Shown one piece after another: positions 4,753 through 17,561 of a DNA stretch of 64,000 nt. The stretch is from the NCBI RefSeq assembly GCF_018760365.1, contig NZ_JAHIAB010000011.1, forward strand, positions 124,001 through 188,000, read 5' to 3'. The notes under the pieces were generated by a model. The model ran no database searches. It was not told the DNA's origin and saw only the letters and a list, made by a program, of their open reading frames with translations. This DNA comes from Pseudooceanicola endophyticus. Its GTDB lineage: Bacteria; Pseudomonadota; Alphaproteobacteria; Rhodobacterales; Rhodobacteraceae. A program made the position numbers and the translations under genes. Every line of letters begins with the position of its first letter. Position 1 is the first letter of the stretch.

Positions 4753-5738
4753 TCGGAGACCTTCAGCCCCGCGCGCGCCTCCCAGAGGTGGCGCGCGGTG
4801 GTTTCGGGCGCGGCGACCCCCAGCGTGTCGAGCGCCAGCGCCGCCGTGCCGATGACGATGGCCTCGGCGAAGGGATCGGCCCAGTCGCCGGACCAGAGCT
4901 GCGACAGCAGCGCCGCATCGGTCCAGCCCTGGTTCAGCTTGCCTGTTTCCTCCAGGATCGCGGGGGCCGTGCCCTCGTGCCACTCGCCGTTGCGCAGCCC
5001 GTAAAGGGCGATGGATTTCATCGGGTTGCGCTCGAACTCCCCGCCGCCGCCCTTGATTACGCTCAGCGCGCTCTGGCCCAGCAGCTTGCCGGCGTCAGCC
5101 TGCAATTCGCGGTAGGGCGGGTGGAAGACCCCCTGCACGCTGGCCGGTGCCTTGGCGGGGTTCAGCACCCGCAGCACGGTGTTCACGCAGGAGCGCAGGT
5201 TGAATTTCTCGCGCAGGCGCAGCAGCTCCAGCAGGCCCGGCTGGAAGGCTTCCAGCGGCAGATAGGCGATGCCCTGGCGTTCCAGCAGCTCTCCGGCATG
5301 GGGGACCGAGGTCGCGGCGGTGATCCCGGCATGGGGCAGGGCATCGCGGACCGAAGCCGCCTCGGCCATGTGGGCGGCGGAATTCCAGCCGTGGATCAGC
5401 ACCGGGTGGCCAGCCCCGGCCACCAGCCGCGCGGCCAGCAGGAAGAAGGGCAGCCCGCGCGTCCGCCCGGCGGCATAGCTGGGCCAGTCGAGCGCGGGGG
5501 GCGCGATCTGCGGCAGGGTTTCGCGGGCGGCCTCGGCAAAGCCCGCGATCTCGTCCGGGACCTCGCCCTTCATGCGCAGCAGCATCAGGATCGCGCCGAC
5601 CGCTTCGGGGTCGGCGCGGCCCGACAGGATCACCTCCATCACCTCCCGCGCCTCGTCCCGGGTCAGGGACCGCGACCGCCCCGGGCCACGGGCCAGGGTG
5701 CGGACATGCGGGGCGAGGAGGTGCGGGGTCTCGGTCAT
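4749..5738 (-). CDS. Anthranilate phosphoribosyltransferase-like protein (TrpD2/YbiB type)
   Basis: The 329-residue protein resembles the glycosyltransferase family 3 fold of TrpD and pyrimidine phosphorylases. It has a helical N-terminus ([28 protein letters not shown] style) and a phosphate-binding-like region around [19 protein letters not shown]. The usual TrpD GTGGD motif is not visible, so tryptophan synthesis is unlikely; TrpD2/YbiB proteins are known as nucleic-acid binders. Its ATG overlaps the nasA stop (ATGA), placing it last in the nitrate assimilation operon. Its role there is unknown. Confidence 0.75.
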
Positions 5739-8368
5739 TCGGCGGCTTCTCTCCTTGGGATGCGGGCCAGAAGCTCGGCCAGTTCCGGCCGGCAGGACCC
5801 GCAATTGGTGCCTGCCCTCAAGGCTTGGCCGATCTGGTCCACCGAAACAAGGCCCTGTTCGGCGATGGCCGACAGGATCGTGTTCACGCCGACGCCGAAG
5901 CAGGCGCAGACCGTCGGGCCGGGATCGGGCATGTCGGCGCCGACGCGGCCCGACAGCGCATGGGGTGCCTCTTCGCCCGGCAGGCCCGCCAGATAGTCGC
6001 GCATCACCGCCACGGGTTCGGCGGCGGCAAAGAGCGCGGCCTTCAGCCGGCCCCCTTCGTGGAAGGCGATGCGGAAGCCGCCCCGGCGCGGGTCGGACAC
6101 CACCTGCACCTCGCCGCCCTCGATCCCGAAAAGCGCGCGCGCCCAGGCTTCCCAGTCTGCGGGCGCCTCGGTGCAGGCGATCTCGGCGCGCCAGCCCTGG
6201 GCGGTTTTCGCCTGCGCCCAGTAGCGGGTTCCGGGCGTGAACCGTTCGGTTGCCACGGCGAAGGCGTAGAAGGCGGCGCGGAACGGTTGCACGTCGCAGA
6301 CGGCGGCCTTGCTTTCCGGCTGACCCGAGACCGGATCGACCACGGGCGCGACCAGCGCGTCGATCCGGGCCGAAGGGGCGGTCTCTGCGGTCCAGTGCAT
6401 CGGCGCGAAGACCTCTCCGGGCTGGACGCGGTCGGTGATCAGCGCGCGCAGGATGCCACGGCCCTGCGGGCTTGCGACCTGCACCAGAGCGGCGGGCGCC
6501 AGTTTCAGCCGGGCGGCATCCTCGGGGTGGATCTCGAGGAAGGGTTCGGCCAGATGCGAGGACAGTTTCGCCGATTTCGCCGTGCGGGTCATCGTGTGCC
6601 ACTGGTCGCGGATCCGCCCGGTGTTCAGGCGGAACGGGTAGCGCGGCCCGGTCTGGGCAGCGGGTTCGCGGTGGTGCAGCGGCAGCATCCGCCCCTTGCC
6701 AGAAGGCGTGAAGAAGCGCCCGTCGGCAAAGAAGCGTCCGCCCTGGCGGCCATCGGTCACCGGCCAGCGGGTGGGTTTCATCTGGTCATAGGCGCTGTCG
6801 GTGATCCCCTTCAGGCCGGAGATGTCGAAATCCAGACCGAAGCCCCCGGCGATGCCCGACAGGGTGGCATATTCGCGGAAGATCTCTTCGGGGCCCTGGT
6901 AATCGAAGGCGTCGCGCCAGCCCATGCGGCGGGCGACCTCGGCCATGGCCCACCAGTCGGGGCGGGCCTCTCCGGGGGCGGGCAGCACCGCGCGCTGGCG
7001 CGAGATCGTCCGGTCCGAATTCGTCACGGTGCCCGATTTCTCGCCCCAGGCGGTGGCGGGCAGCAGCACGTCGGCCAGCCGCGCGGTATCCGTGCGGTCG
7101 GTCACATCCGAGACGACGACGAAATCGCAGCCCGCGATGGCGTCGCGCACCCGGTCCGCATCGGGCATGGACACGGCGGGGTTGGTGTGGATGATCCAGA
7201 GCGCCTTGATCCGCCCCTCGCCCACGGCGCGGAACATGTCGACGGCCTTCAGGCCGGGCTTTTCGGGCATGGCGGGGGCATCCCAGAACTGCCGGACCGC
7301 CTGGCGGTGATCAGGGTTCTCGATCTCCATGTGGCAGGCCAGCATGTTGGCCAGGCCGCCGACCTCGCGGCCACCCATGGCATTGGGCTGGCCGGTGACG
7401 CTGAACGGGCCGCAGCCCGGCTTGCCGATGCGCCCCGTCGCCAGGTGGCAGTTCAGGATCGCGTTGACCTTGTCGGCGCCGGAAGAGCTTTGGTTGACGC
7501 CCTGGCTGAACACGGTGACGACCTTCTCGGTGCCGACCCAGAGCTGGTAGAAGCGTTTCAGCAGCAGCGGATCCAGCCCGGTGACGGTCGGATCAGAGTC
7601 CGAGGCCGCGGCAATGGCCTCTTCGAAGCCGTCGATGTGGTCCAGGAACGGGCCGTCCACCGCGCCCATGTCGTAGATCGCCGACAGCAGGCCGTTGAAC
7701 AGCGCCACGTCTGATCCGGGCCGCAGCGGCAGGTGCAGATCGGCGATGTCGCAGGTCGCAGTGCGGCGCGGGTCGATGACGACGATCTTCATCTCGGGCC
7801 GGGCTTCCTTGGCGGCGCGGATGCGCTGGAACAGCACCGGGTGGCACCAGGCGGTGTTCGAGCCGGTCAGCACGACCAGATCGGCCAGCTCCAGATCCTC
7901 GTAGGTGCCGGGCACGGTGTCGGTGCCGAAGGCGCGCCTGTGTCCCGCCACGGTCGAGGCCATGCAAAGCCTTGAGTTCGTGTCGATATTCGCCGTGCCA
8001 AGGTAGCCCTTGGTCAGCTTGTTGGCGATGTAATAATCCTCGGTCAGCAGTTGCCCCGAGACATAGAGCGCCACCGAATCCGGCCCGTGACGGGCCACGG
8101 TGTCGCGGAATTTCTCCGCCACCAGGTCAAGCGCCGTGTCCCAGTCCGCGCGCGCGCCCTTGATGACGGGATGGAGGAGACGGTCATCCAGACCGACCGT
8201 CTCGCCGAGGTTGGTGCCCTTGGAGCAGAGCCGCCCGCGGTTCGCGGGATGCTCCGGATCGCCGCGGACCGCCAGCCCGCCTGCCCCATCGGGGCGCAGA
8301 AGAACGCCGCAGCCGACGCCGCAATAGGCGCAGGTGGATCGGGTTTCAGGCAGGCTGGAGCCGTCCAT
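5735..8368 (-). CDS. nasA: Assimilatory nitrate reductase, molybdopterin catalytic subunit
   Basis: It reduces nitrate to nitrite in the cytoplasm using a Mo-bis-MGD cofactor. The 877-residue protein has an N-terminal [4Fe-4S] site with Cys near 13, 16, 20 and 48 (CAYCGVGC, then RLCSKG). Molybdopterin oxidoreductase motifs follow, for example ARPDWWAMAEVARRMGW and NTGRIRDQWHTMTRT. The C-terminal ~60 residues form a BFD-like [2Fe-2S] domain (VCACFGVG, then GTNCGSC), as in Klebsiella-type NasA enzymes, likely an electron entry site. The stop overlaps the next gene and the start overlaps the nirD stop, so the genes are translationally coupled. Confidence 0.95.
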   Translation of the reverse strand: MDGSSLPETRSTCAYCGVGCGVLLRPDGAGGLAVRGDPEHPANRGRLCSKGTNLGETVGLDDRLLHPVIKGARADWDTALDLVAEKFRDTVARHGPDSVALYVSGQLLTEDYYIANKLTKGYLGTANIDTNSRLCMASTVAGHRRAFGTDTVPGTYEDLELADLVVLTGSNTAWCHPVLFQRIRAAKEARPEMKIVVIDPRRTATCDIADLHLPLRPGSDVALFNGLLSAIYDMGAVDGPFLDHIDGFEEAIAAASDSDPTVTGLDPLLLKRFYQLWVGTEKVVTVFSQGVNQSSSGADKVNAILNCHLATGRIGKPGCGPFSVTGQPNAMGGREVGGLANMLACHMEIENPDHRQAVRQFWDAPAMPEKPGLKAVDMFRAVGEGRIKALWIIHTNPAVSMPDADRVRDAIAGCDFVVVSDVTDRTDTARLADVLLPATAWGEKSGTVTNSDRTISRQRAVLPAPGEARPDWWAMAEVARRMGWRDAFDYQGPEEIFREYATLSGIAGGFGLDFDISGLKGITDSAYDQMKPTRWPVTDGRQGGRFFADGRFFTPSGKGRMLPLHHREPAAQTGPRYPFRLNTGRIRDQWHTMTRTAKSAKLSSHLAEPFLEIHPEDAARLKLAPAALVQVASPQGRGILRALITDRVQPGEVFAPMHWTAETAPSARIDALVAPVVDPVSGQPESKAAVCDVQPFRAAFYAFAVATERFTPGTRYWAQAKTAQGWRAEIACTEAPADWEAWARALFGIEGGEVQVVSDPRRGGFRIAFHEGGRLKAALFAAAEPVAVMRDYLAGLPGEEAPHALSGRVGADMPDPGPTVCACFGVGVNTILSAIAEQGLVSVDQIGQALRAGTNCGSCRPELAELLARIPRREAAE

Positions 8369-8694
8369 CAGGCCGCACTCCTCTTGCCGACAGAGGCGCC
8401 ATCCAGCAGCAGCCGGCCGCCCTCGATCTTCAGCGGGAAGGTCGGGATCTGGTGACCGTCGGTGCCCTCGCCGGTCTCAAGCGAGAAGACGGCGTTGTGC
8501 AGCGGGCAGGTGATCTTCTTGCCGTGCACGATGCCTTCCGACAGCGGGCCCTGCTTGTGCGGGCAGGTGTTGCCGATGGCATAGGCCTCGGTTTCGCTGC
8601 TGCGCACGATGGCGACGCAGCCCACGGGGGTCTTCACCACGCGCGAGCCCCGGACGGGGATGTCGTTCAGGTGTCCGATATCGATCCAGCTCAT
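8368..8694 (-). CDS. nirD: Nitrite reductase small subunit NirD
   Basis: NirD is the Rieske-type small subunit that partners NirB in NADH-dependent nitrite reduction to ammonia. The 108-residue protein has CPHKQGPLSEG and CPLHNAVFSLETGEG, giving the Cys-X-His and Cys-X2-His ligand pairs of a Rieske-like [2Fe-2S] fold; many NirD proteins lack these ligands, so this one is probably a true iron-sulfur version. The start at 8694 overlaps the nirB stop by 4 bases, and the stop overlaps the nasA start. Confidence 0.93.
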   Translation of the reverse strand: MSWIDIGHLNDIPVRGSRVVKTPVGCVAIVRSSETEAYAIGNTCPHKQGPLSEGIVHGKKITCPLHNAVFSLETGEGTDGHQIPTFPLKIEGGRLLLDGASVGKRSAA

Positions 8695-11126
8695 TCTGCG
8701 GCCTCCAGGGTGATGTCTGCCAGGGGTTGGTACTGCTCGGAGTGGTTCTTGACGTGATCCGCCCAGGGATCCTTGCGGTAGACGCTTTGCGAGATCTCGA
8801 AGCGTTCGTTCAGGGCAGCGCGTTCCTCGGCGTTCGACAGGGTGTCCTTGACCCAGTCGAGACCGACCTTGGCGACCCATTTGTAGGGCCGGTCGAGGTA
8901 CTTGGCGTTCTCGCGGTAAAGCTGCATGAAGGCGGCGATCCACTCGATCGCTTCCGCTTCGGTCTTCGCGTCGATCAGCCGTTCGGTTTCCTTCACATCC
9001 ATGCCGGCGGCGCCCGCGACCCCGATCTGGTAGCCGCTGTCGACGCAGACCACGCCGATGTCCTTGCAGGTGGCCTCGGCGCAGTTGCGCGGGCAGCCCG
9101 AGACGCCCAGCTTGACCTTGTGCGGCGTCCAGGAGCCCCAGAGCTTCTTCTCCAGCTGGATGCCGAGGCCCGAGCTGTCCTGCGTGCCGAAGCGGCAGAA
9201 CTCCTTGCCGACGCAGGTCTTCACCGTGCGCAGACCCTTGGAATAGGCGTGACCCGAGACCATGCCGGCCGCGTTCAGGTCATCCCAGATCGCCGTCAGG
9301 TCCTCTTTCTTGACGCCCAGAAGGTCGATGCGCTGACCGCCGGTGACATGCAGCTTGGCGCCGTATTTCTCGGAAGCATCTGCAATGGCGCGCAGCTCGT
9401 CGGGGGTGGTCATGCCGCCCCACATCCGCGGCACGACCGAATAGGTGCCGTCCTTCTGGATGTTGGCATGGCGACGCTCGTTGACGAAGCGCGATTGCAG
9501 GTTGTCCTGATATTCCAGCGGCCAGTCGGCCAGCAGGTAGTAGTTCACCGCCGGGCGGCAGACATGGCAGCCGTTCGCGGTTTTCCAGCCCAGTTCCTGC
9601 CAGACGGCGGCTTCGGATTTCAGCGCCTTGGCCTTGATCAGGCGGCGGATGTCTTCGTGGGTATGGTCCGAGCAGCCGCAGATCGACTGTGCCGCGGGGA
9701 TGACGAAATCATCGCCCAGCGTCACCGCCATGACCTGTTCCACCAGTCCCGTGCAGGTCCCGCAGGAGGCCGAGGCCTTGGTCGTGGCACGAACATCCGC
9801 AAGCGTATGGGCGCCGTTCTTCACCGCGTTGACGATGGTGCTCTTGCAAATGCCGTTGCAGCCGCAGATTTCCGCATCATCCGGCAAGGCTGCAACGGCT
9901 GCCAAAGGGTCCCCGGAGGCACCTCCCTGGAAGGCCGGGCCAAAGATCAGCGTGTCGCGGATGTCCGAGACATCGGTGCCGTCCTTCATCATGCCGAAGA
10001 ACCAGTTGCCGTCGGCGGTGTCGCCATACATCACGGCGCCAAGGATCTTGTTGTCCTTCAGCACGATGCGCTTGTAGACGCCGCGCGCGGGATCGCGGAA
10101 GACGATGTCCTCGCGGTCCTCGCCCTCGGCGAAATCCCCGGCGCTGAACAGGTCGCAGCCCGTGACCTTCAGCTTGGTCGACACGTCGCGGTGCACATAG
10201 CCCGCCGCTTCGCCCACCAGCGTCTTCGCGGCAACCTTGGCCTGGTCGTAGATCGGCGCGACGAGGCCGAACAGCATCCCGTCCAGTTCCACGCATTCGC
10301 CAAGCGCCAGAATGTCGGGATCCGAGGTCTGCATCGTCGCATCGACATGGATCGCGCGACCGGTGGCCAGGCCGGCCTCTTTCGCCAGCGCGACGTTCGG
10401 GCGGATGCCCACGGCCATCACCAGCAGGTCGCAGGGCAGCACGGTGCCGTTGTCCAGCTCAAGCCCCGTGACCTTGCCGTTTTCCCCGAGGATCTGCTTG
10501 GAGTTGGTCGCGCACAGCACCTTGATGCCACGGCCCACCAGCTCCTTGCGCAGCAGGTAGCCGGCGCTTTCGTCAAGCTGGCGCTCCATCAGGTGGCCCA
10601 TGATGTGCACGACGGTGGTGTCGACGCCCTGCGCGTGCAGGCCAGCGGCGGCTTCCAGACCCAGCAGGCCGCCCCCGATGACGACGGCGGAGGACCCTTC
10701 GGTCTTGCCCAGCTCCATCATGCGGTAGGTGTCTTCAAGGTCGCGATAGGCGATCACGCCCTCCAGGTCATGACCCGGCAGCGGGATGATGAACGGGTTC
10801 GACCCCGTCGCGATCACCAGCTTGTCGTAGGGCAGGACGTCGCCGTTCTCGGCGGTGACGGTCTTGGCCGCGCGGTCGATCGCCACGACCTTCTCGCCGA
10901 AGCGGGTGGTCACGCCCTGGTCGTCGTACCACTGGGCATTGTGGGTCTCGATCTGCTCGTAGGTCTTCTCGCCCGAGAGGACGGGAGAGAGCATGATGCG
11001 GTTGTAGGTCCCGCGCGGTTCTGCGTTGAAGAGCGTGACATCCCAGTCGCCGCCCTGCTCGAAAAGATGCTCCAGCATCCGCCCGGAGGCCATGCCGGCA
11101 CCGATCACAATCAGCTTCTGTGCCAT
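8691..11126 (-). CDS. nirB: Nitrite reductase (NADH) large subunit NirB
   Basis: NirB carries out six-electron reduction of nitrite to ammonium. The 811-residue protein has an N-terminal FAD/NADH pyridine nucleotide-disulfide oxidoreductase region (LIVIGAGMASGRMLE; second Rossmann motif VVIGGGLLGLEAA). Next come two BFD-like [2Fe-2S] segments (CGCNGIC...CGTC; CGCS...CHVC), then the sulfite/nitrite reductase ferredoxin-like region. The sirohaem/[4Fe-4S] cysteines are in TCVGKEFC and SGCPRNC. The start chosen gives the canonical MAQKLIVIGAGM beginning. A 67-base gap separates it from nrtCD. Confidence 0.97.
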   Translation of the reverse strand: MAQKLIVIGAGMASGRMLEHLFEQGGDWDVTLFNAEPRGTYNRIMLSPVLSGEKTYEQIETHNAQWYDDQGVTTRFGEKVVAIDRAAKTVTAENGDVLPYDKLVIATGSNPFIIPLPGHDLEGVIAYRDLEDTYRMMELGKTEGSSAVVIGGGLLGLEAAAGLHAQGVDTTVVHIMGHLMERQLDESAGYLLRKELVGRGIKVLCATNSKQILGENGKVTGLELDNGTVLPCDLLVMAVGIRPNVALAKEAGLATGRAIHVDATMQTSDPDILALGECVELDGMLFGLVAPIYDQAKVAAKTLVGEAAGYVHRDVSTKLKVTGCDLFSAGDFAEGEDREDIVFRDPARGVYKRIVLKDNKILGAVMYGDTADGNWFFGMMKDGTDVSDIRDTLIFGPAFQGGASGDPLAAVAALPDDAEICGCNGICKSTIVNAVKNGAHTLADVRATTKASASCGTCTGLVEQVMAVTLGDDFVIPAAQSICGCSDHTHEDIRRLIKAKALKSEAAVWQELGWKTANGCHVCRPAVNYYLLADWPLEYQDNLQSRFVNERRHANIQKDGTYSVVPRMWGGMTTPDELRAIADASEKYGAKLHVTGGQRIDLLGVKKEDLTAIWDDLNAAGMVSGHAYSKGLRTVKTCVGKEFCRFGTQDSSGLGIQLEKKLWGSWTPHKVKLGVSGCPRNCAEATCKDIGVVCVDSGYQIGVAGAAGMDVKETERLIDAKTEAEAIEWIAAFMQLYRENAKYLDRPYKWVAKVGLDWVKDTLSNAEERAALNERFEISQSVYRKDPWADHVKNHSEQYQPLADITLEAAE

Positions 11127-11193
11127 GGGTCTGATCCTTCGTAGGGTCTTGTTGCGGTAACGGCAGGAGAGCTGCCGGGAGGGGGAGGCGGCC

Positions 11194-12888
11194 TTACTCG
11201 GCCGCGATCTTCGTCGGAGCCGCGGCCTTCGCCTTGGGCTTCGCGCCATGTTCGTACTCTTCGAGGAAATCGAGCACTTCCTGGCGGTAGTGGTAGTAAT
11301 CGGGGTGGTCGAGCAGCGCCTTGCGGGTGCGCGGACGGGGCAGGTTCACATCGGTGATCTTGCCGATGGTGGCCTGCGGGCCGTTGGTCATCATCACCAC
11401 GCGGTCGGCCAGCAGGATCGCTTCGTCGACGTCATGGGTGACGCAGATCGCGGTGACCTTGGTGCGCGACCAGACCTCCATCAGCACTTCCTGAAGCTCC
11501 CAGCGGGTCAGGCTGTCGAGCATCCCGAAGGGCTCGTCCAGCAGCAGCAGCTTGGGGCTGAGGGCGAAGGCGCGGGCGATGCCGACGCGCTGCTTCATGC
11601 CGTTGGACATGGAATGCGCCGGACGGTCCATCGCATCGCCCAGACCGACGCGCTCCAGGTAGTATTCCACCACGTCCTGACGTTCGGCACGGCTGGCCTT
11701 GGGATAGACCCGGTCGACCCCGATGGCGACGTTCTCCTTGGCGGACAGCCAGGGGAAGAGGTTCGGCGCCTGGAAGACCACGGCGCGTTCCGGATCGGCG
11801 CCTTCGACGTCGTAGCCATCTAGCTTGATCACGCCCTTGGAGATCGCGTTCAGACCGGCGGTCATGGTCAGCACGGTGGACTTGCCGCAGCCTGAATGGC
11901 CGATCAGCGAGATGAATTCGCCGCGATCCATCTTCAGGTTGAAATCCTCGACCACGGTCAGCGGACCCTTGGGCGTGGGGTAGATCTTGTGCAGCTTCTC
12001 GAAGGACAGGAAACGGTTGTCCAGCATTCCCTTCTGCGCGTCGCTGACGGCTTTGGGCAGGTTGTCGTGGGTATGGATCGCCTCGACATTCGGTAGCGTA
12101 CGGTTGCCGTCGGACTTGGCCTCGATCCCCGCGTCCATCAGGTAATTGGTGACCTTTGCGCGCAGCGCCTTGAAAGTGTCGTCGGTGTTCATCGCCGAGC
12201 GGTCCCGGGGGCGGGGCATCTCGACGCGGAATTCCTCGCCCAGGGTGCCGTCGGGGTTCAGCGCAATGATGCGGTCGGCCAGCAGGATGGCCTCGTCCAC
12301 GTCGTTGGTGATCAGCACGCAGGTCTTCTTGTCGGCGTTCCAGATCGCCTCGATCTCGTCCCCGAGGTTGGCGCGGGTCAGCGCGTCGAGCGCCGAGAGC
12401 GGCTCGTCCAGCAGCAGCACCTCTGGGTTCATGGCCAGCGCCCGGGCGACGTTGACGCGCTGGCGCATCCCGCCCGAAAGCTCTGCCGGACGGCGCGAGG
12501 CGGCGTGGCTGAGGCCCACCATCTTGATGTATTTCGCGACGGTCTGCGCCTTCTCGACGCGGCCCATCTGCGGGAAGCAGCTATCGAGGGCGAGCTGCAC
12601 GTTGCCGGCCACGGTCAGCCAGGGCATCAGCGAGTAGTTCTGGAAGATCACGCCGCGCTCGGGGCCGGGGCCCTCGATGCGCTTGCCGCGAAAGCTGACC
12701 TGGCCCCTGGTCGGGAATTCGAGGCCCGCCATCAGGTTGATCAGGGTGGTCTTGCCGGTGCCGGAGAAGCCCAGGAGGACGAGGAATTCGCCCTCATGGA
12801 CCGTCAGGTTGATGTCCTTGAGGACATGGGTGGCCTCGGTGCCTTCGCCGAAGCTTTTCGAAACGTTCTGGAAGTCGATGACGGCCAT
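11194..12888 (-). CDS. Nitrate ABC transporter ATPase, two fused nucleotide-binding domains
   Basis: This 564-residue protein energises nitrate import and fuses two ABC ATPase domains in one chain, replacing separate NrtC and NrtD. Domain 1 has Walker A GFSGTGKTT near 40-48, signature LSGGM near 137-141, Walker B LLLDEP and Asn195 where the switch His is expected (LITNDVDEA). Domain 2 has Walker A GHSGCGKST near 330-338, signature-region MSNGM near 427-431, LLLDEP and the normal His485. The linker spans about 230-295; the NrtA-like regulatory domain of cyanobacterial NrtC is absent. ATG 12888 is preferred; a GTG at 12897 overlapping the nrtB stop is possible. The tail is rich in Lys and Ala. 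Confidence 0.92.
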   Translation of the reverse strand: MAVIDFQNVSKSFGEGTEATHVLKDINLTVHEGEFLVLLGFSGTGKTTLINLMAGLEFPTRGQVSFRGKRIEGPGPERGVIFQNYSLMPWLTVAGNVQLALDSCFPQMGRVEKAQTVAKYIKMVGLSHAASRRPAELSGGMRQRVNVARALAMNPEVLLLDEPLSALDALTRANLGDEIEAIWNADKKTCVLITNDVDEAILLADRIIALNPDGTLGEEFRVEMPRPRDRSAMNTDDTFKALRAKVTNYLMDAGIEAKSDGNRTLPNVEAIHTHDNLPKAVSDAQKGMLDNRFLSFEKLHKIYPTPKGPLTVVEDFNLKMDRGEFISLIGHSGCGKSTVLTMTAGLNAISKGVIKLDGYDVEGADPERAVVFQAPNLFPWLSAKENVAIGVDRVYPKASRAERQDVVEYYLERVGLGDAMDRPAHSMSNGMKQRVGIARAFALSPKLLLLDEPFGMLDSLTRWELQEVLMEVWSRTKVTAICVTHDVDEAILLADRVVMMTNGPQATIGKITDVNLPRPRTRKALLDHPDYYHYRQEVLDFLEEYEHGAKPKAKAAAPTKIAAE

Positions 12889-12893
12889 GGGGA

Positions 12894-13976
12894 TCACCGG
12901 TTGTTCGAGAAGGTGAAGAGGGATTGCAGGGCGAACATCACGCGATCGAGCAGGAAGCCGATGATGCCGATGGTGAAGACCGCGACCATGATCTTGGCGA
13001 GCGAGGAGGAAGAGCCGTTCTGGAATTCATCCCAGACGAATTTTCCGAGGCCGGGGTTCTGGGCCAGCATCTCGGCGGCGATCAGCACCATCCAGCCCAC
13101 ACCCAGCGACAGGCGCAGCCCGGTGAAGATCAGCGGCAGGGCCGAGGGAAGCACCAGCTTGGTGATCTTCTGCCAGGTGCCCATCTTGAGGACCCGGGAG
13201 ACCGAGATCAGGTCCTTGTCGATGGAGGCCACGCCAAGCGCGGTGTTGATCAGCGTCGGCCAGAGCGAGCAGAGCGTCACGGTGATGGCCGAGACCAGGA
13301 AGGATTTCGCGAACAGGCCGTCGTTGGTGGTGTAGACCGCCGAGACGACCATGGTGACGATGGGCAGCCAGGCCAGCGGCGAGACCGGTTTGAAGATCTG
13401 GATGATCGGGTTCAGCGCAGCGTTCGCGGTGACGGAAAGACCGGCGGCGATGCCAAGGGGGATGGCGACGACAGAGGCGACAAGGAAGCCGAAGAACACC
13501 GTCTTGATTGAGGTCCAGATCTGTTCGTAGTAGCTGGGCGCGCCGGTATAGGGGATGGTCTTCACCTGGTCGGCCTTGCCGGCGGCGATCAGGCGTTCGT
13601 TGCGGGCCTCGACGCGTTCCTCGAACTTCTGCTTGTCGGCGGCGGTGCGCAGGGCGCTTTCATGCAGGCTGACGGCCTCTTCCCAGACCTGGGCGGGGCC
13701 GGGCACGGCGCCGAGCGAGGTCTGGACCTTCGGCGCCAGGGTGCCCCAGAGCAGCAGGAAGCAGGCGATGGCCAGCAGCGGCACGCCGAGCAGACGCCAG
13801 ACGTCCTTCATCTGGGCCTTGGGGTTGTCGCCGGCCAGCGCCTTCAGGATCGGGGTGATCCAGGCCAGGCCGAGGACGCGGAACCACTTGTCCGCGGTGT
13901 TGATGGTGGTGAAGAGCTTTGCGCGGCGCGCTTCGCGGGCCTCTGCGCGTGCAAAATCGGGATCGACGGTGGTCAT
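12894..13976 (-). CDS. nrtB: Nitrate ABC transporter permease NrtB
   Basis: This is the inner-membrane permease of the nitrate importer. The 360-residue protein has an N-terminal extension, then a transmembrane helix near LLAIACFLLLWGTLAP. After a charged periplasmic loop, further helices contain the binding-protein-dependent transport EAA region (LPSALPLIFTGLRLSLGVGW). It is longer than cyanobacterial NrtB because of the N-terminal half before the first EAA-type block. The start at 13976 (ATG) is preferred to an in-frame TTG two codons earlier. It lies between nrtA and the fused ATPase gene, 5 bases from the latter. Confidence 0.93.
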   Translation of the reverse strand: MTTVDPDFARAEAREARRAKLFTTINTADKWFRVLGLAWITPILKALAGDNPKAQMKDVWRLLGVPLLAIACFLLLWGTLAPKVQTSLGAVPGPAQVWEEAVSLHESALRTAADKQKFEERVEARNERLIAAGKADQVKTIPYTGAPSYYEQIWTSIKTVFFGFLVASVVAIPLGIAAGLSVTANAALNPIIQIFKPVSPLAWLPIVTMVVSAVYTTNDGLFAKSFLVSAITVTLCSLWPTLINTALGVASIDKDLISVSRVLKMGTWQKITKLVLPSALPLIFTGLRLSLGVGWMVLIAAEMLAQNPGLGKFVWDEFQNGSSSSLAKIMVAVFTIGIIGFLLDRVMFALQSLFTFSNNR

Positions 13977-14147
13977 TGTCAACTCTCTGATCTGACGGGC
14001 GGAACCCGCATTATCCGTGAAAAGCCGGGACGACGGGGACGCTCGCGCCTTCGGCGCATCGCCCCACCCGCCGTCCCGTCAGGCTGGAAGAGGGAAACAG
14101 GCAGTCCTCTGGAGGGGGAACTGCGGTACTCGTTACGGGTGAGGGGG

Positions 14148-15515
14148 TCAGCCCTGGATGTCGGACCCCACGACCTTCTGATCGTCCTTCAGGCCGATCG
14201 GGAGGCTGTCGATGTAGGCATTGGGCTGCTTGCCGTCGAAGCCGATGCCGTCGATCACGTCGGAGGCCGGCGTCGGATCCTTGTAGCCATCGCTGGACCA
14301 GTCGAAATCGGCCTCATTGGCCAGGCCCTCGTCGACCAGGGCGCGGGCGGCCTTGAGGAAGATCTCGGGCTTGTAGACGGATTTCGCGACCTCGTCGTAC
14401 CAGCTGTCGGGGTGACCTTCGGCGATCTGGCCCCAGCGGCGCATCTGGGTCAGGTACCAGACCGCATCGGAGTAATAGGGGTAGTTCGCATTGTAGCGGA
14501 AGAAGACGTTGAAGTCGGGGACCTCGCGCTTGTCGCCCTTTTCGTATTCGAAGGTGCCGGTCATCGAGTTGGCGATCACCTCGGCATCGGCGCCGACGTA
14601 GTTCGGCTGGGCCAGGATCTTCACCGCCTCGGCGCGGTTGGCATTGTCGTTCTCATCCAGCCACTGGGCGGCGCGGATCAGCGCCTTGGTGACGGCGAGG
14701 GTGGTGTTGGGATATTTCTCGGCGAATTCGGCGGTGATGCCGAAGACCTTCTCGGGGTTGTTCTTCCAGATCTCGTAGTCGGTCACCACCGGCACGCCGA
14801 TGCCCTTGAAGACGGCCTGCTGGTTCCAGGGCTCGCCGACGCAGTAGCCGGAGATGGTGCCGGCCTCGAGCGTGGCGGGCATCTGGGGCGGCGGGGTCAC
14901 CGACAGCAGCGCCTGGGCGCCGATCTGGCCCGAGACATTCTCGGGCGAGTAGTAGCCGGGGTTGATGCCGCCGGCGGCCAGCCAGTAGCGCAGCTCGTAA
15001 TTATGGGTGGAGACCGGGAAGACCATGCCCATGTTGAAGGGCTTGCCCTCGGCGTTGAACTTTTCGATCACCGGCTTCAGGTAGGAGGCCGAGATCGGAT
15101 GCGCGACCTTGCCGTCCGCATCCAGCGGCAGGGCGGGCTTCATCATGTCCCAGACCTCGTTCGAGACGGTGATGCCGTTGCCGTTCAGGTCCATGGAGAA
15201 GGGGGTGATGATATGCGCCTGGGTGCCGTAGCCGATGGTGGCGGCGATCGGCTGGCCGGCCAGCATGTGCGCCCCGTCCAGCGTCCCCGAGATCACGCCA
15301 TCCAGCAGCACCTTCCAGTTGGCCTGGGCTTCGAGGGTCACGAAGAGGCCCTCGTCGTCGAAGAAGCCCTGTTCATAGGCCACGGCCAGCGGCGCCATGT
15401 CCGTCAGCTTGATGAAGCCGAAGGTCAGCACGTCCTTTTCCAGGTTCTCGGTCACGGCGAAGGCCGGCGTCACCAGAGCGGTCGAAAGACCCAGTGCCAG
15501 AAGCAGTTTGTTCAT
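14148..15515 (-). CDS. nrtA: Nitrate ABC transporter substrate-binding protein NrtA
   Basis: NrtA captures nitrate for the NrtB/NrtCD importer. The 455-residue protein begins with a signal peptide of about 20 residues ending in PAFA. The mature part contains [33 protein letters not shown] and a [16 protein letters not shown] region, all characteristic of NrtA/CmpA proteins. There is no lipobox, so it should be soluble in the periplasm. It is the first structural gene after the antitermination leader and is related in sequence to NasS, the cytoplasmic sensor encoded upstream. Confidence 0.95.
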
Positions 15516-15574: not shown

Positions 15575-15685
15575 AAAAGCCGCTACGACATGCGCCGGAA
15601 ACCATGTGGTTTCAGCGAGTCGAGCGGCTCTGCTCAGTCAACCCAATCGGTGGGAAAATGCGTGAGGCGGGCGCCATTGCCTGCC
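15575..15685 (-). promoter_or_regulatory. NasT-type antitermination leader: two ANTAR hairpins and an intrinsic terminator
   Basis: Read on the minus strand in the nasS-nrtA spacer. Hairpin 1 (15685-15666) has arms GGCAGGC and GCCCGCC, with one A.C mismatch, closing hexaloop AAUGGC. Hairpin 2 (15635-15622) has arms GAGC and GCUC closing hexaloop AGAGCC. Both loops have A at position 1 and G at position 4, the known signature of ANTAR-protein RNA targets. Bases 15629-15623 also form the 5' arm (AGCCGCU) of a terminator whose 3' arm AGCGGCU is at 15584-15578. Four extra CGAC/GUCG pairs across a bulged U extend the stem, and UUUU follows. Hairpin 2 and the terminator are therefore mutually exclusive. 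Free NasT would let transcription enter nrtA. Confidence 0.85.
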
Positions 15686-15798
15686 TGTAGGGTCGTTAAA
15701 CCGGATTCGCTGACGTCGGGCAAACATTCTCTGGGCAGGAAGGGAATGTTTTGCGATAACGGCGCCGGAAGACCGGATGCGGATCAATTCTTGGGCGG

Positions 15799-16980
15799 TT
15801 ATTTCCCGCTTGGCTCAAAAACGCGGCCATCGAAGAACCGGTCCGGCAGCAGTGAAAGCCGTCCGGAGGCCGAGGCGATGGAGGTTTCCTGGGCAATCGC
15901 CCCCTCGATCTTCATCGAGGCGCCGGGCAGATCGGCTTCGGTTCCCGCCAGGGCATCGCGGTGCAGGTCAGACCGGAAGGCGGCACGCCCGGCGCGCAAC
16001 GCCTGATCGCGGTCCAGCCCGGTGCGCGCGGCCAGCTGCAGGGCGATCCATTCCGCCTGGCTGCGCCAGGGGAAGGTTGCGCAGCCGCGGTGGAAGCCGA
16101 CGAACTGCGCCACCTCGCGGACCTCGCCACGGGCATTGATCACCATCCGCCCCGAGAGCGCGCGGTCCAGGATCTCGGCCGGCAGGTCGAGGTATTCGGG
16201 ACGGGCCAGCAGCTCGGCGGTGAGGCTTTTGGATTCCGGAGCCGCGAGCCAGCGCCCGGCGCGCCAGGTGGCCCGAACCAGCCGGCCCAGCAGCTCGTCC
16301 TCGCGCTCGGCCCAGTCGGTGCGGGTGGCCAGCACCTTTTCCGGGGCGAAGGCCCAGATCGCGCGGCCCGGCAACAGCAGCTCTCCGGCGGCGTTCTCGA
16401 CGGTGATGGAGCCCCAGGGCTCTCCGACGCAGAAGGCGTCCAGCTCTCCGGCGGCCATGGCATCGGCCATCAGCGCGGGGGGCACGGTGCGGATCAGCAC
16501 GCTTTGCGGGGCGGGCAGGCCGACGGCGTTCAGCCAGTAGTACAGCAGCTCGGCATGCATGGAGAAGGGGAAGGGCACGCCGATGCGCAGCGGCCGGTCG
16601 GCGGGCTTGGCGGCCAGCAGCGCCTGGCCTGCGGCCAGCGCGTCGTTGAAGGCGAAATCATGGCCGACGGCGCGCAGGCGCTCGGCCAGCGCGTTCGAGA
16701 CGCCGATGACATTGCCGTTGACGTTCAGCACGGAGACCGCCGAAAGCGCCGCCCCGGTGCCGCCCAGCCCCAGGGCCGAGGCCACCGGCACCGGCGACAG
16801 CATATGCGCGGCCTCGACCCGGCCATAGACCAGCATGTCGCGCAGCGAGGACCAGGAGGGCGCCTTCAGCAGGTCAAGCGCGATGCCCTCCTCGGCGGCA
16901 AAGCCCATCTCCTGCGCCACAACGAGGGGCGCCGCATCGACAAGGCCGATGAACCCGACCGAGAGTGCCGTGGCCTTCAT
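15799..16980 (-). CDS. nasS: Nitrate/nitrite sensor NasS
   Basis: NasS is a cytoplasmic NrtA-like protein that in characterised systems binds nitrate or nitrite and releases the antiterminator NasT. The 393-residue product shares the NrtA pattern (LSVGFIGLVDAAPLVVAQEMG, EAAHMLSPVPVASALG, LDAFCVGEPWGS) but has no signal peptide, as expected for the sensor. It overlaps nasT by 4 bases (ATGA), consistent with equimolar production. The leader hairpins lie between it and nrtA. Confidence 0.92.
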   Translation of the reverse strand: MKATALSVGFIGLVDAAPLVVAQEMGFAAEEGIALDLLKAPSWSSLRDMLVYGRVEAAHMLSPVPVASALGLGGTGAALSAVSVLNVNGNVIGVSNALAERLRAVGHDFAFNDALAAGQALLAAKPADRPLRIGVPFPFSMHAELLYYWLNAVGLPAPQSVLIRTVPPALMADAMAAGELDAFCVGEPWGSITVENAAGELLLPGRAIWAFAPEKVLATRTDWAEREDELLGRLVRATWRAGRWLAAPESKSLTAELLARPEYLDLPAEILDRALSGRMVINARGEVREVAQFVGFHRGCATFPWRSQAEWIALQLAARTGLDRDQALRAGRAAFRSDLHRDALAGTEADLPGASMKIEGAIAQETSIASASGRLSLLPDRFFDGRVFEPSGK

Positions 16981-17561
16981 CCCAGCAGCCCCGCGGTCGA
17001 GACCAGCGCCTGCGCCACGTCGGCGACGCGCTTGCCCTGGTCCATGGCGGCCTTGCGCAGCAGGGCATAGGCCTCGTCCTCGCCGACGCCGCGGGCCTTC
17101 ATCAACATGCCCTTGGCACGGTCGATGACCTTGCGCTCTTCCAGGGCCTTCTTGGTGGCGGCCAGCTCGGTGCGCATGCGCTGGAACATGTGGAAGCGGG
17201 CAACGGCGGCATCCAGCACCGGCTTCACCCGGTCGGGCGCCATGCCGGCCACGACATAGGCGGAAACGCCGGCCTCGATCGCGGCGCGGGTCAGGCTGTC
17301 GTCGGTCTGGTCGACGAACATCGCGACGGGGCGTTCCAGCGGGCCGGAGGCCAGCGTCAGCTCTTCCATCATGTCGCGCGAGGGGTTGGCGATGTCGATC
17401 AGCACCATGTCGGGATTGTGGTTGCGGATCGAACGGGCCAGCCCGGTGGTTTCCGCGATGACATGGATGTCGAAATCTCCGGCGGCGCGCAGGCTGTCGA
17501 CGATCAGCAGCGCGCGGTCCCGGTCCGGTTCGACGACGATAATGGAAAGCTTGTCGGCCAT
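16977..17561 (-). CDS. nasT: Nitrate-responsive antiterminator NasT (receiver plus ANTAR)
   Basis: The 194-residue protein has a receiver-like domain (LSIIVVEPDRDRALLIVDSL, MVLIDIANPSRDMMEEL) followed by a coiled linker and a C-terminal ANTAR RNA-binding domain (ALEERKVIDRAKGMLMKARGVGEDEAYALLRKAAM). This is the expected NasT architecture. It should bind the paired hexaloop hairpins at 15622-15685 when not held by NasS. The start is the ATG at 17561; the frame stays open upstream but that part lacks family similarity. No strong ribosome-binding site was seen. Confidence 0.94.
   Translation of the reverse strand: MADKLSIIVVEPDRDRALLIVDSLRAAGDFDIHVIAETTGLARSIRNHNPDMVLIDIANPSRDMMEELTLASGPLERPVAMFVDQTDDSLTRAAIEAGVSAYVVAGMAPDRVKPVLDAAVARFHMFQRMRTELAATKKALEERKVIDRAKGMLMKARGVGEDEAYALLRKAAMDQGKRVADVAQALVSTAGLLG

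Follow-up and report, generated by a model that had tools for sequence, protein, structure and literature searches.

A putative NasT-controlled leader with three tandem ANTAR-type hairpins upstream of the nitrate assimilation genes of Pseudooceanicola endophyticus

Introduction

In the literature model of ANTAR regulation, as the available texts present it, one protein dimer reads two RNA hairpins held at a strict spacing. Among its targets are the EutV-dependent eut leaders (Ramesh 2012; Walshe 2022), where both hairpins carry hexaloops with A at position 1 and G at position 4 (A1/G4), the second hairpin overlaps an intrinsic terminator and the loop-closing pair is important; SELEX points to a C-G closing pair (PMC7496416). 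Linkers in the Enterococcus faecalis eut leaders span 5–12 nt, and linkers of 3 or 14 nt impair EutV activity (PMC3369931), while the addition of 20 nt abolishes it (PMC8934654). A more permissive linker of 2–25 nt was used in the ANTAR motif of PMC8164766. EutV is activated by phosphorylation, whereas NasT is thought to be freed from its partner NasS.

Three other known systems come close to the leader discussed here. The Klebsiella nasF leader is, like the leader discussed here, a nitrate-responsive ANTAR target at the head of a nas operon, but its regulator NasR is a one-component NIT-ANTAR sensor and the leader is described as having two hairpins (PMC3369936, PMC7496416). In Bradyrhizobium, antitermination by NasT has been shown for nosR, and hairpins are predicted for nirA and narK (PMC6759348). 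The third is that of Paracoccus denitrificans, where NasT shifts the nasA leader RNA in gels (PMC3795266). When three bases are changed in hairpin HI, which lies 137 bp ahead of nasA, expression is severely reduced, and with HI replaced the cells no longer grow on nitrate; altering HII, 91 bp ahead of nasA, makes little difference in the presence of nitrate, whereas with ammonium expression rises twofold (PMC5424462). The available text of PMC5424462 describes two hairpins and does not mention a middle one.

Here we describe a probable ANTAR leader, as such of a known kind; its three-hairpin, long-linker form is a variant for which we found no description. A literature search of mostly open-access texts, some available in part, likewise returned no account of three tandem hairpins for an ANTAR protein.

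Results

A NasS-NasT gene pair precedes the nitrate assimilation genes

The window, meaning the whole 64,000-nt stretch analysed (Pseudooceanicola endophyticus, RefSeq assembly GCF_018760365.1, contig NZ_JAHIAB010000011.1, positions 124,001 to 188,000), encodes on its minus strand, in order, nasT, nasS, a 283-base gap, nrtA, nrtB, a double nrtCD-type ATPase, nirB and a nitrate-reductase-like catalytic subunit.

16977..17561, minus: nasT, pseudo-receiver plus ANTAR domain (Pfam ANTAR E 1.2e-21; Response_reg E 1.2e-4, under its cut-off)
15799..16980, minus: nasS, nitrate-sensor-like protein of the NMT1_2/NrtA type (Pfam NMT1_2 E 2.8e-66)
14148..15515, minus: nrtA, the first gene proposed to be controlled (NMT1_2 E 2.3e-95)
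12894..13982, minus: nrtB permease (TIGR01183 ntrB E 6.4e-46, under its cut-off)
11194..12897, minus: nrtCD-type double ABC ATPase (TIGR01184 ntrCD E 1.5e-175)
8691..11249, minus: nirB, nitrite reductase large subunit (TIGR02374 E 3.3e-256), in a frame with an N-terminal extension
5735..8368, minus: nitrate-reductase-like catalytic subunit (NCBIfam Fdh-alpha and NasC-type matches, every one under its cut-off)

The window thus holds a regulator pair of the NasS-NasT type, with a REC-like plus ANTAR protein beside an NrtA-like NMT1_2 protein, and nasS overlaps the end of nasT. The start codon of nasT was chosen by us; the open frame extends to 17744. A genome-wide search returned NasT as the sole ANTAR match. 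Many plasmid nasS homologues adjoin genes annotated 'ANTAR domain-containing protein', and a nasT-nasS-type pair is also annotated in five named plasmid records.

Three hairpins and a terminator in the nasS-nrtA gap

The following elements lie between nasS and nrtA, listed in the direction of transcription.

15718..15723, minus: -35-like TTGCCC, separated by a 17-nt spacer from the next element
15695..15700, minus: -10-like TTTAAC, a putative promoter element read from the sequence
15666..15685, minus: P0, GGC-A-GGC (AAUGGC) GCC-C-GCC, hexaloop A1 and G4 at 15678-15673
15642..15654, minus: Pm, the middle hairpin, CCCA(CCGAU)UGGG, or CCC(ACCGAUU)GGG with a 7-nt loop (A1, G4)
15622..15635, minus: P2, the putative antiterminator, GAGC (AGAGCC) GCUC, hexaloop A1 and G4 at 15631-15626
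15575..15631, minus: intrinsic terminator, U run at 15578-15575, whose 5' arm overlaps the loop and 3' arm of P2

An earlier sequence-only reading had proposed a NasT/ANTAR antitermination leader built on P0 and P2. Its description of two minus-strand hexaloop hairpins, AAUGGC and AGAGCC, each with A1 and G4 and 30 nt apart, agrees with the sequence: the arm-to-arm gap occupies 15665-15636, and both loops are closed by a C-G pair. So does the overlap of the second hairpin with the 5' arm of a terminator ending in UUUU. This arm begins within the P2 loop, and the 11 pairs described are 7 plus 4 bp across one bulge, in a stem that can be extended by A-U and G-U pairs into the U run. Pm, which lies inside the P0-P2 linker, had escaped notice, as had the promoter-like hexamers.

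From the promoter-like hexamers the RNA would start at about 15688, three bases ahead of P0. Folded from this putative start, the leader reaches -48.4 kcal/mol with P0, Pm and the terminator formed, compared with -38.7 kcal/mol when P2 is enforced, so P2 and the terminator are predicted to be mutually exclusive. Eight nested prefixes from 15688 were also folded; those ending at 15621, 15610 and 15590 hold P0, Pm and P2 together (with the P0 stem slightly changed in the prefix ending at 15610), and the prefix ending at 15600 folds differently, without Pm and P2. The 131-nt stretch 15700-15570 has a folding z of -3.06, with 2 of 200 shuffles equally good. An Rfam search of the window returned no family at or above its gathering score.

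P0, P2 and the terminator are conserved in the family

NrtA matches occur in 88 of 198 family genomes. We retained the 70 leaders (window included) with a near-full-length NrtA match, omitting 18 genomes with fragments or distant matches, and applied an automatic rule requiring an A1/G4 hairpin, a second A1/G4 hairpin 25–75 nt downstream, a terminator arm starting from the second loop and a U run. The rule finds 58 of the 70 leaders, against a mean of 0.77 and a maximum of 3 in dinucleotide shuffles (30 sets). Eleven further leaders were placed by hand, some departing from the rule with G1 loops or imperfect terminators, and in one (L062) neither hairpins nor terminator were found. Relatives lacking the A1/G4 loops or the terminator overlap, which the sequence-only reading had named as evidence against itself, are therefore largely absent.

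In the 69 leaders so placed, of which 11 by hand, the P0 loop has A1 in 68 and G4 in all, and the P2 loop A1 in 67 and G4 in all; the closing pair is C-G in 68 (P0) and 69 (P2). G1 loops occur in P0 of L040 and in P2 of L024, L056 and Haematobacter, and L022 has no clean U run. The structure covaries, with 82.4% of cells paired compared with 70.6% in shuffles and at most 46% when slid (90.7% for the P0 inner helix).

As a side observation, the P2 loop begins with G in L024, L056 and L158 (GAGGCC, GAAGCC), showing that naturally occurring leaders can depart from A1.

These counts bear on whether the element is a plain attenuator unrelated to NasT whose A1/G4 loops are coincidental. NasT-RNA contact at the window leader is our inference, which leaves such a reading some room, but dual A1/G4 hairpins with the P2-terminator overlap in 58 of 70 leaders against about 0.8 in shuffles, the adjacency of nasT and nasS and the P. 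denitrificans experiments make it highly improbable.

Two covariance models, R1 and R2, were built, the latter from 56 leaders with the window and its congener excluded. Genome-wide, R2 recovers the window leader (E 1.3e-11), one other place (E 8.6e-9, discussed below) and a third match at E 0.02; with R1 and R2 we found no further NasT targets in this genome, the next matches having E 0.02 or worse. Beyond the family, class-wide model matches fall in 13 genomes and are mostly weak, although three coincide with independently found leaders (G304/L076, G363/L074, G458/L103). Six others that were fetched, L165-L170, were treated as chance, since tblastn finds no nas or nrt homologue nearby. The same search finds none near L164 (G181), a weak match within the family.

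The sequence-only reading had suspected that the linker may exceed that of the best-studied targets; at 30 nt it is longer than the 5–12 nt of the E. faecalis eut leaders. We considered this a possible peculiarity of the window genome and rejected the idea, as long linkers are the norm among the leaders examined: the P0 and P2 loop starts lie 38–63 nt apart in 69 of 69, and the arms 20–47 nt apart in 68 of 68, more than EutV reportedly accepts.

The linker contains a conserved third hairpin

A short linker is found in the window only if Pm is counted as a partner, with sub-linkers of 11 nt (P0-Pm) and 6 nt (Pm-P2). The corresponding medians are 10 and 6 nt; 50 of 68 P0-Pm and 59 of 68 Pm-P2 sub-linkers fall within 5–12 nt, and both fall within 3–14 nt in 57 of 68 leaders.

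Pm was evaluated in 69 leaders, 68 of which have the helix by rule. The best linker helix scores 11.8 compared with a mean of 9.4 in shuffled linkers (maximum 10.5, 300 sets), and its position has a standard deviation of 2.7 compared with 6.9. The Pm loop carries R1 and G4 in 34 of 68 leaders, against 5.7 in shuffles (maximum 14), and in 44 of 68 once the 7-nt register is allowed (loops of 6–7 nt, a count without shuffle control). The arms covary as well: true linker halves score 10.9, compared with 8.1 when halves are swapped between leaders, and in none of the three splits tried does any of 2000 permutations attain the mean of the true halves. Restricted to leaders without CCC/GGG, the swap test gives 209/2000 (18 leaders), 4/2000 (17) and 0/2000 (15) by split, failing at one. 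From the helix, position and loop relative to shuffles, together with the arm-swap test, we reject an unstructured linker. The claim that two hairpins pair across a bare 30-nt linker is accordingly incomplete, as the linker holds a conserved third hairpin at the position usual for the partner of P2. The proposal of a NasT/ANTAR antitermination leader itself has strong support from the neighbouring genes, the A1/G4 loops, the overlap of P2 with the terminator and the conservation among relatives.

Pm is nevertheless a weak hairpin (-3.9 kcal/mol), and single linkers seldom beat their shuffles, with 9 of 69 reaching rank 0.05 and 34 of 69 rank 0.2. The leaders compared are related and so are non-independent samples, though nearly every genome represents a different genus. 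Pair counts in a MAFFT alignment of 58 leaders, 11 odd-linker leaders having been dropped beforehand, reveal no clear Pm covariation, and RNAalifold, given an alignment made from sequence alone, recovers P0 and P2 and leaves Pm out. We ascribe these misses to differences in loop length, yet they are negative results. Hexaloops account for 32 of the 68 Pm loops. The window itself, where the Pm loop is 5 or 7 nt, has no hexaloop at the distance usual for a partner.

In L043, of the window's family, the middle hairpin is strong and matches the ANTAR type perfectly, GGATGCC(AATGGC)GGCATCC, and Haematobacter massiliensis has a perfect hexaloop, AAAGAC, at the middle position.

An alternative is the two-hairpin switch of the sequence-only reading, in which NasT binds P0 and P2 alone and Pm passively shortens the path without touching the protein. 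Among the three loops, that of Pm shows the weakest conservation (5–8 nt, with G or A at position 1), P0 and P2 carry the nearly invariant A1/G4, and a strong middle stem replaces the small A1/G4 hairpin in L090 (by rule) and L085 (by eye). A spacer, however, needs no G4 in its loop, yet 50 of 58 aligned leaders have G in the position-4 column and R1 with G4 is far above shuffles; moreover, all three loops are A1/G4 in some leaders (see below). We regard a purely passive Pm as rather unlikely; it is nested within our preferred explanation, a NasT-controlled three-hairpin leader, which accommodates both a bound and an unbound Pm.

Pm occupies the partner position seen in other families

A class-wide search led us to fetch 40 nas loci; L072 belongs to the window's family and the remaining 39 to other families. 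From 21 of these loci we hand-picked 22 leaders, of which 21 represent other families. Upstream of P2 they contain 32 R1/G4 hexaloop hairpins, compared with 4.1 expected. A hairpin lies 17–26 nt from P2 in 16 of the 22, eight of which have this proximal hairpin alone, as in the textbook pair; nine have at least two hairpins upstream of P2 (L090 among them lacks a proximal one and has two that overlap), and five have a distal hairpin alone by rule. Three A1/G4 loops are found in L091, L098 and L102, and also in Rhodobacter sp. CZR27, where a 3-bp stem forms the third hairpin, identified by eye. Since Pm lies about 20 nt from P2, it stands at the place of the textbook partner, and P0 is an additional distal hairpin.

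This arrangement could mean that Pm and P2 are the functional pair, with P0 an accessory 5'-end hairpin serving, for example, RNA stability. The Pm-P2 distance equals the usual partner distance of 17–26 nt in other Alphaproteobacteria, and the eight leaders with a proximal hairpin alone would fit. We nevertheless consider it improbable, as P0 is the better conserved hairpin and HI, whose mutation severely lowers P. denitrificans nasA expression, appears to map to P0 by distances and cloning site.

The P. denitrificans mapping was made on strain HAMBI_2443, and the published experiments used another strain. HI appears to be the distal hairpin GGCGC(AACGGC)GCGCC, corresponding to P0, because its extended stem ends about 137 bp upstream and its 3' arm has an AscI site like the published cloning site. 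HII would be the hairpin with loop GACGAU, and between the two presumed counterparts lies a further hairpin, TCGC(AATGAT)GCGG. The window and the P. denitrificans nasS-nasA leader share a NasS-NasT pair, a site after nasS and hexaloop hairpins; in the latter, NasT binds the leader and expression requires HI (PMC3795266, PMC5424462). They differ in that the last of the three P. denitrificans hairpins has a G1 loop (GACGAU) and no clean U-run terminator is visible by eye. With respect to the controlled gene, we take P. denitrificans nasA, by its look, to encode an MFS-type transporter and not NrtA.

A second three-hairpin leader precedes cysG

The other strong model match in the window genome (G000:C2:116650-116710; L149:6151-6211, minus) is a second three-hairpin leader, with P0, Pm, P2 and a U run, located before the siroheme synthase gene cysG. 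Two model searches with overlapping genome sets gave matches in 94 of 244 and 71 of 198 genomes, and seven genomes have two matches each (G000, G088, G532, G092, G607, G071 and G161). In six of the seven, the second match stands ahead of cysG or of its methyltransferase part (the window genome and L150, L151, L152, L153 and L161); five of these six leaders have G4 in the Pm loop by eye, L153 being the exception. In the seventh, G161 (L162, G161:C4:540542-540607, minus), the gene that follows encodes a NirB-like protein of 662 residues, which aligns with the NirB model over its N-terminal part alone (1-467 of 794).

Siroheme serves NirB, so co-induction of the nrt-nir genes and cysG makes sense. 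In Sinorhizobium meliloti, cysG is co-transcribed with nirB (PMC6616083). Our literature search on NasT with cysG, in texts partly available, found no report of a NasT leader before cysG.

Promoter regions

A TTG-type -35 element at a window-like distance from P0 occurs in 35 of 69 leaders, compared with 8.9 in shuffles, for a pattern picked post hoc. More generally, leaders of the window's family are often preceded by a sigma-70-like promoter. A GCTGC-N-GCAGC-like palindrome, also picked post hoc, lies in the promoter region upstream of P0 in 16 of 69 leaders compared with 1.4 in shuffles; it is possibly a nitrogen-regulator site and is not obvious in the window. Several other-family leaders (L098, L095, L103, L096 and others) are preceded by a TTGGCAC-N-TTGC-like motif that, by eye, we presume to be a sigma-54 promoter.

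Discussion

We conclude that the nasS-nrtA gap probably encodes a NasT-controlled transcription-attenuation leader composed of three tandem ANTAR-type mini-hairpins, and that cysG is probably under the same switch. This conclusion draws on sequence, predicted folding, conservation, arm covariation and gene context, from which we infer NasT binding, the response to nitrate, the role of Pm and the start site.

Without nitrate, NasS would hold NasT, the nascent RNA would form the terminator and RNA polymerase would stop ahead of nrtA. Nitrate or nitrite would release NasT, which would bind the hairpins, stabilize P2 and block the terminator, so that the nrt-nir-nas genes are read. P0, which opens the transcript, would be the strong hairpin on which NasT lands, and Pm, as a NasT site or a compacting element, may be a weakened bridge from P0 to P2, bringing each step within the reach of an ANTAR dimer. 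The separate cysG gene of the window genome would be under parallel NasT control.

A more specific version, which we put forward tentatively as quite possible, is that NasT reads the three-hairpin array in place of the textbook pair, landing on the perfect distal A1/G4 hairpin and being handed over by the weak middle hairpin to the antiterminator.

The two best hairpins of this leader class lie outside the spacing rule, and a degenerate third hairpin restores it. This may explain why search models that assume short linkers would overlook leaders of the class. The class also makes it testable how ANTAR proteins count and space hairpins. If NasT does read the array, the NasT leaders of Rhodobacteraceae and other Alphaproteobacteria would form a class of their own, with the RNA engaged by two successive NasT dimers or by a higher oligomer and with a sharper nitrate threshold. 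For P. endophyticus, the cysG leader suggests that nitrate induces siroheme, the cofactor of nitrite reductase, along with the enzyme.
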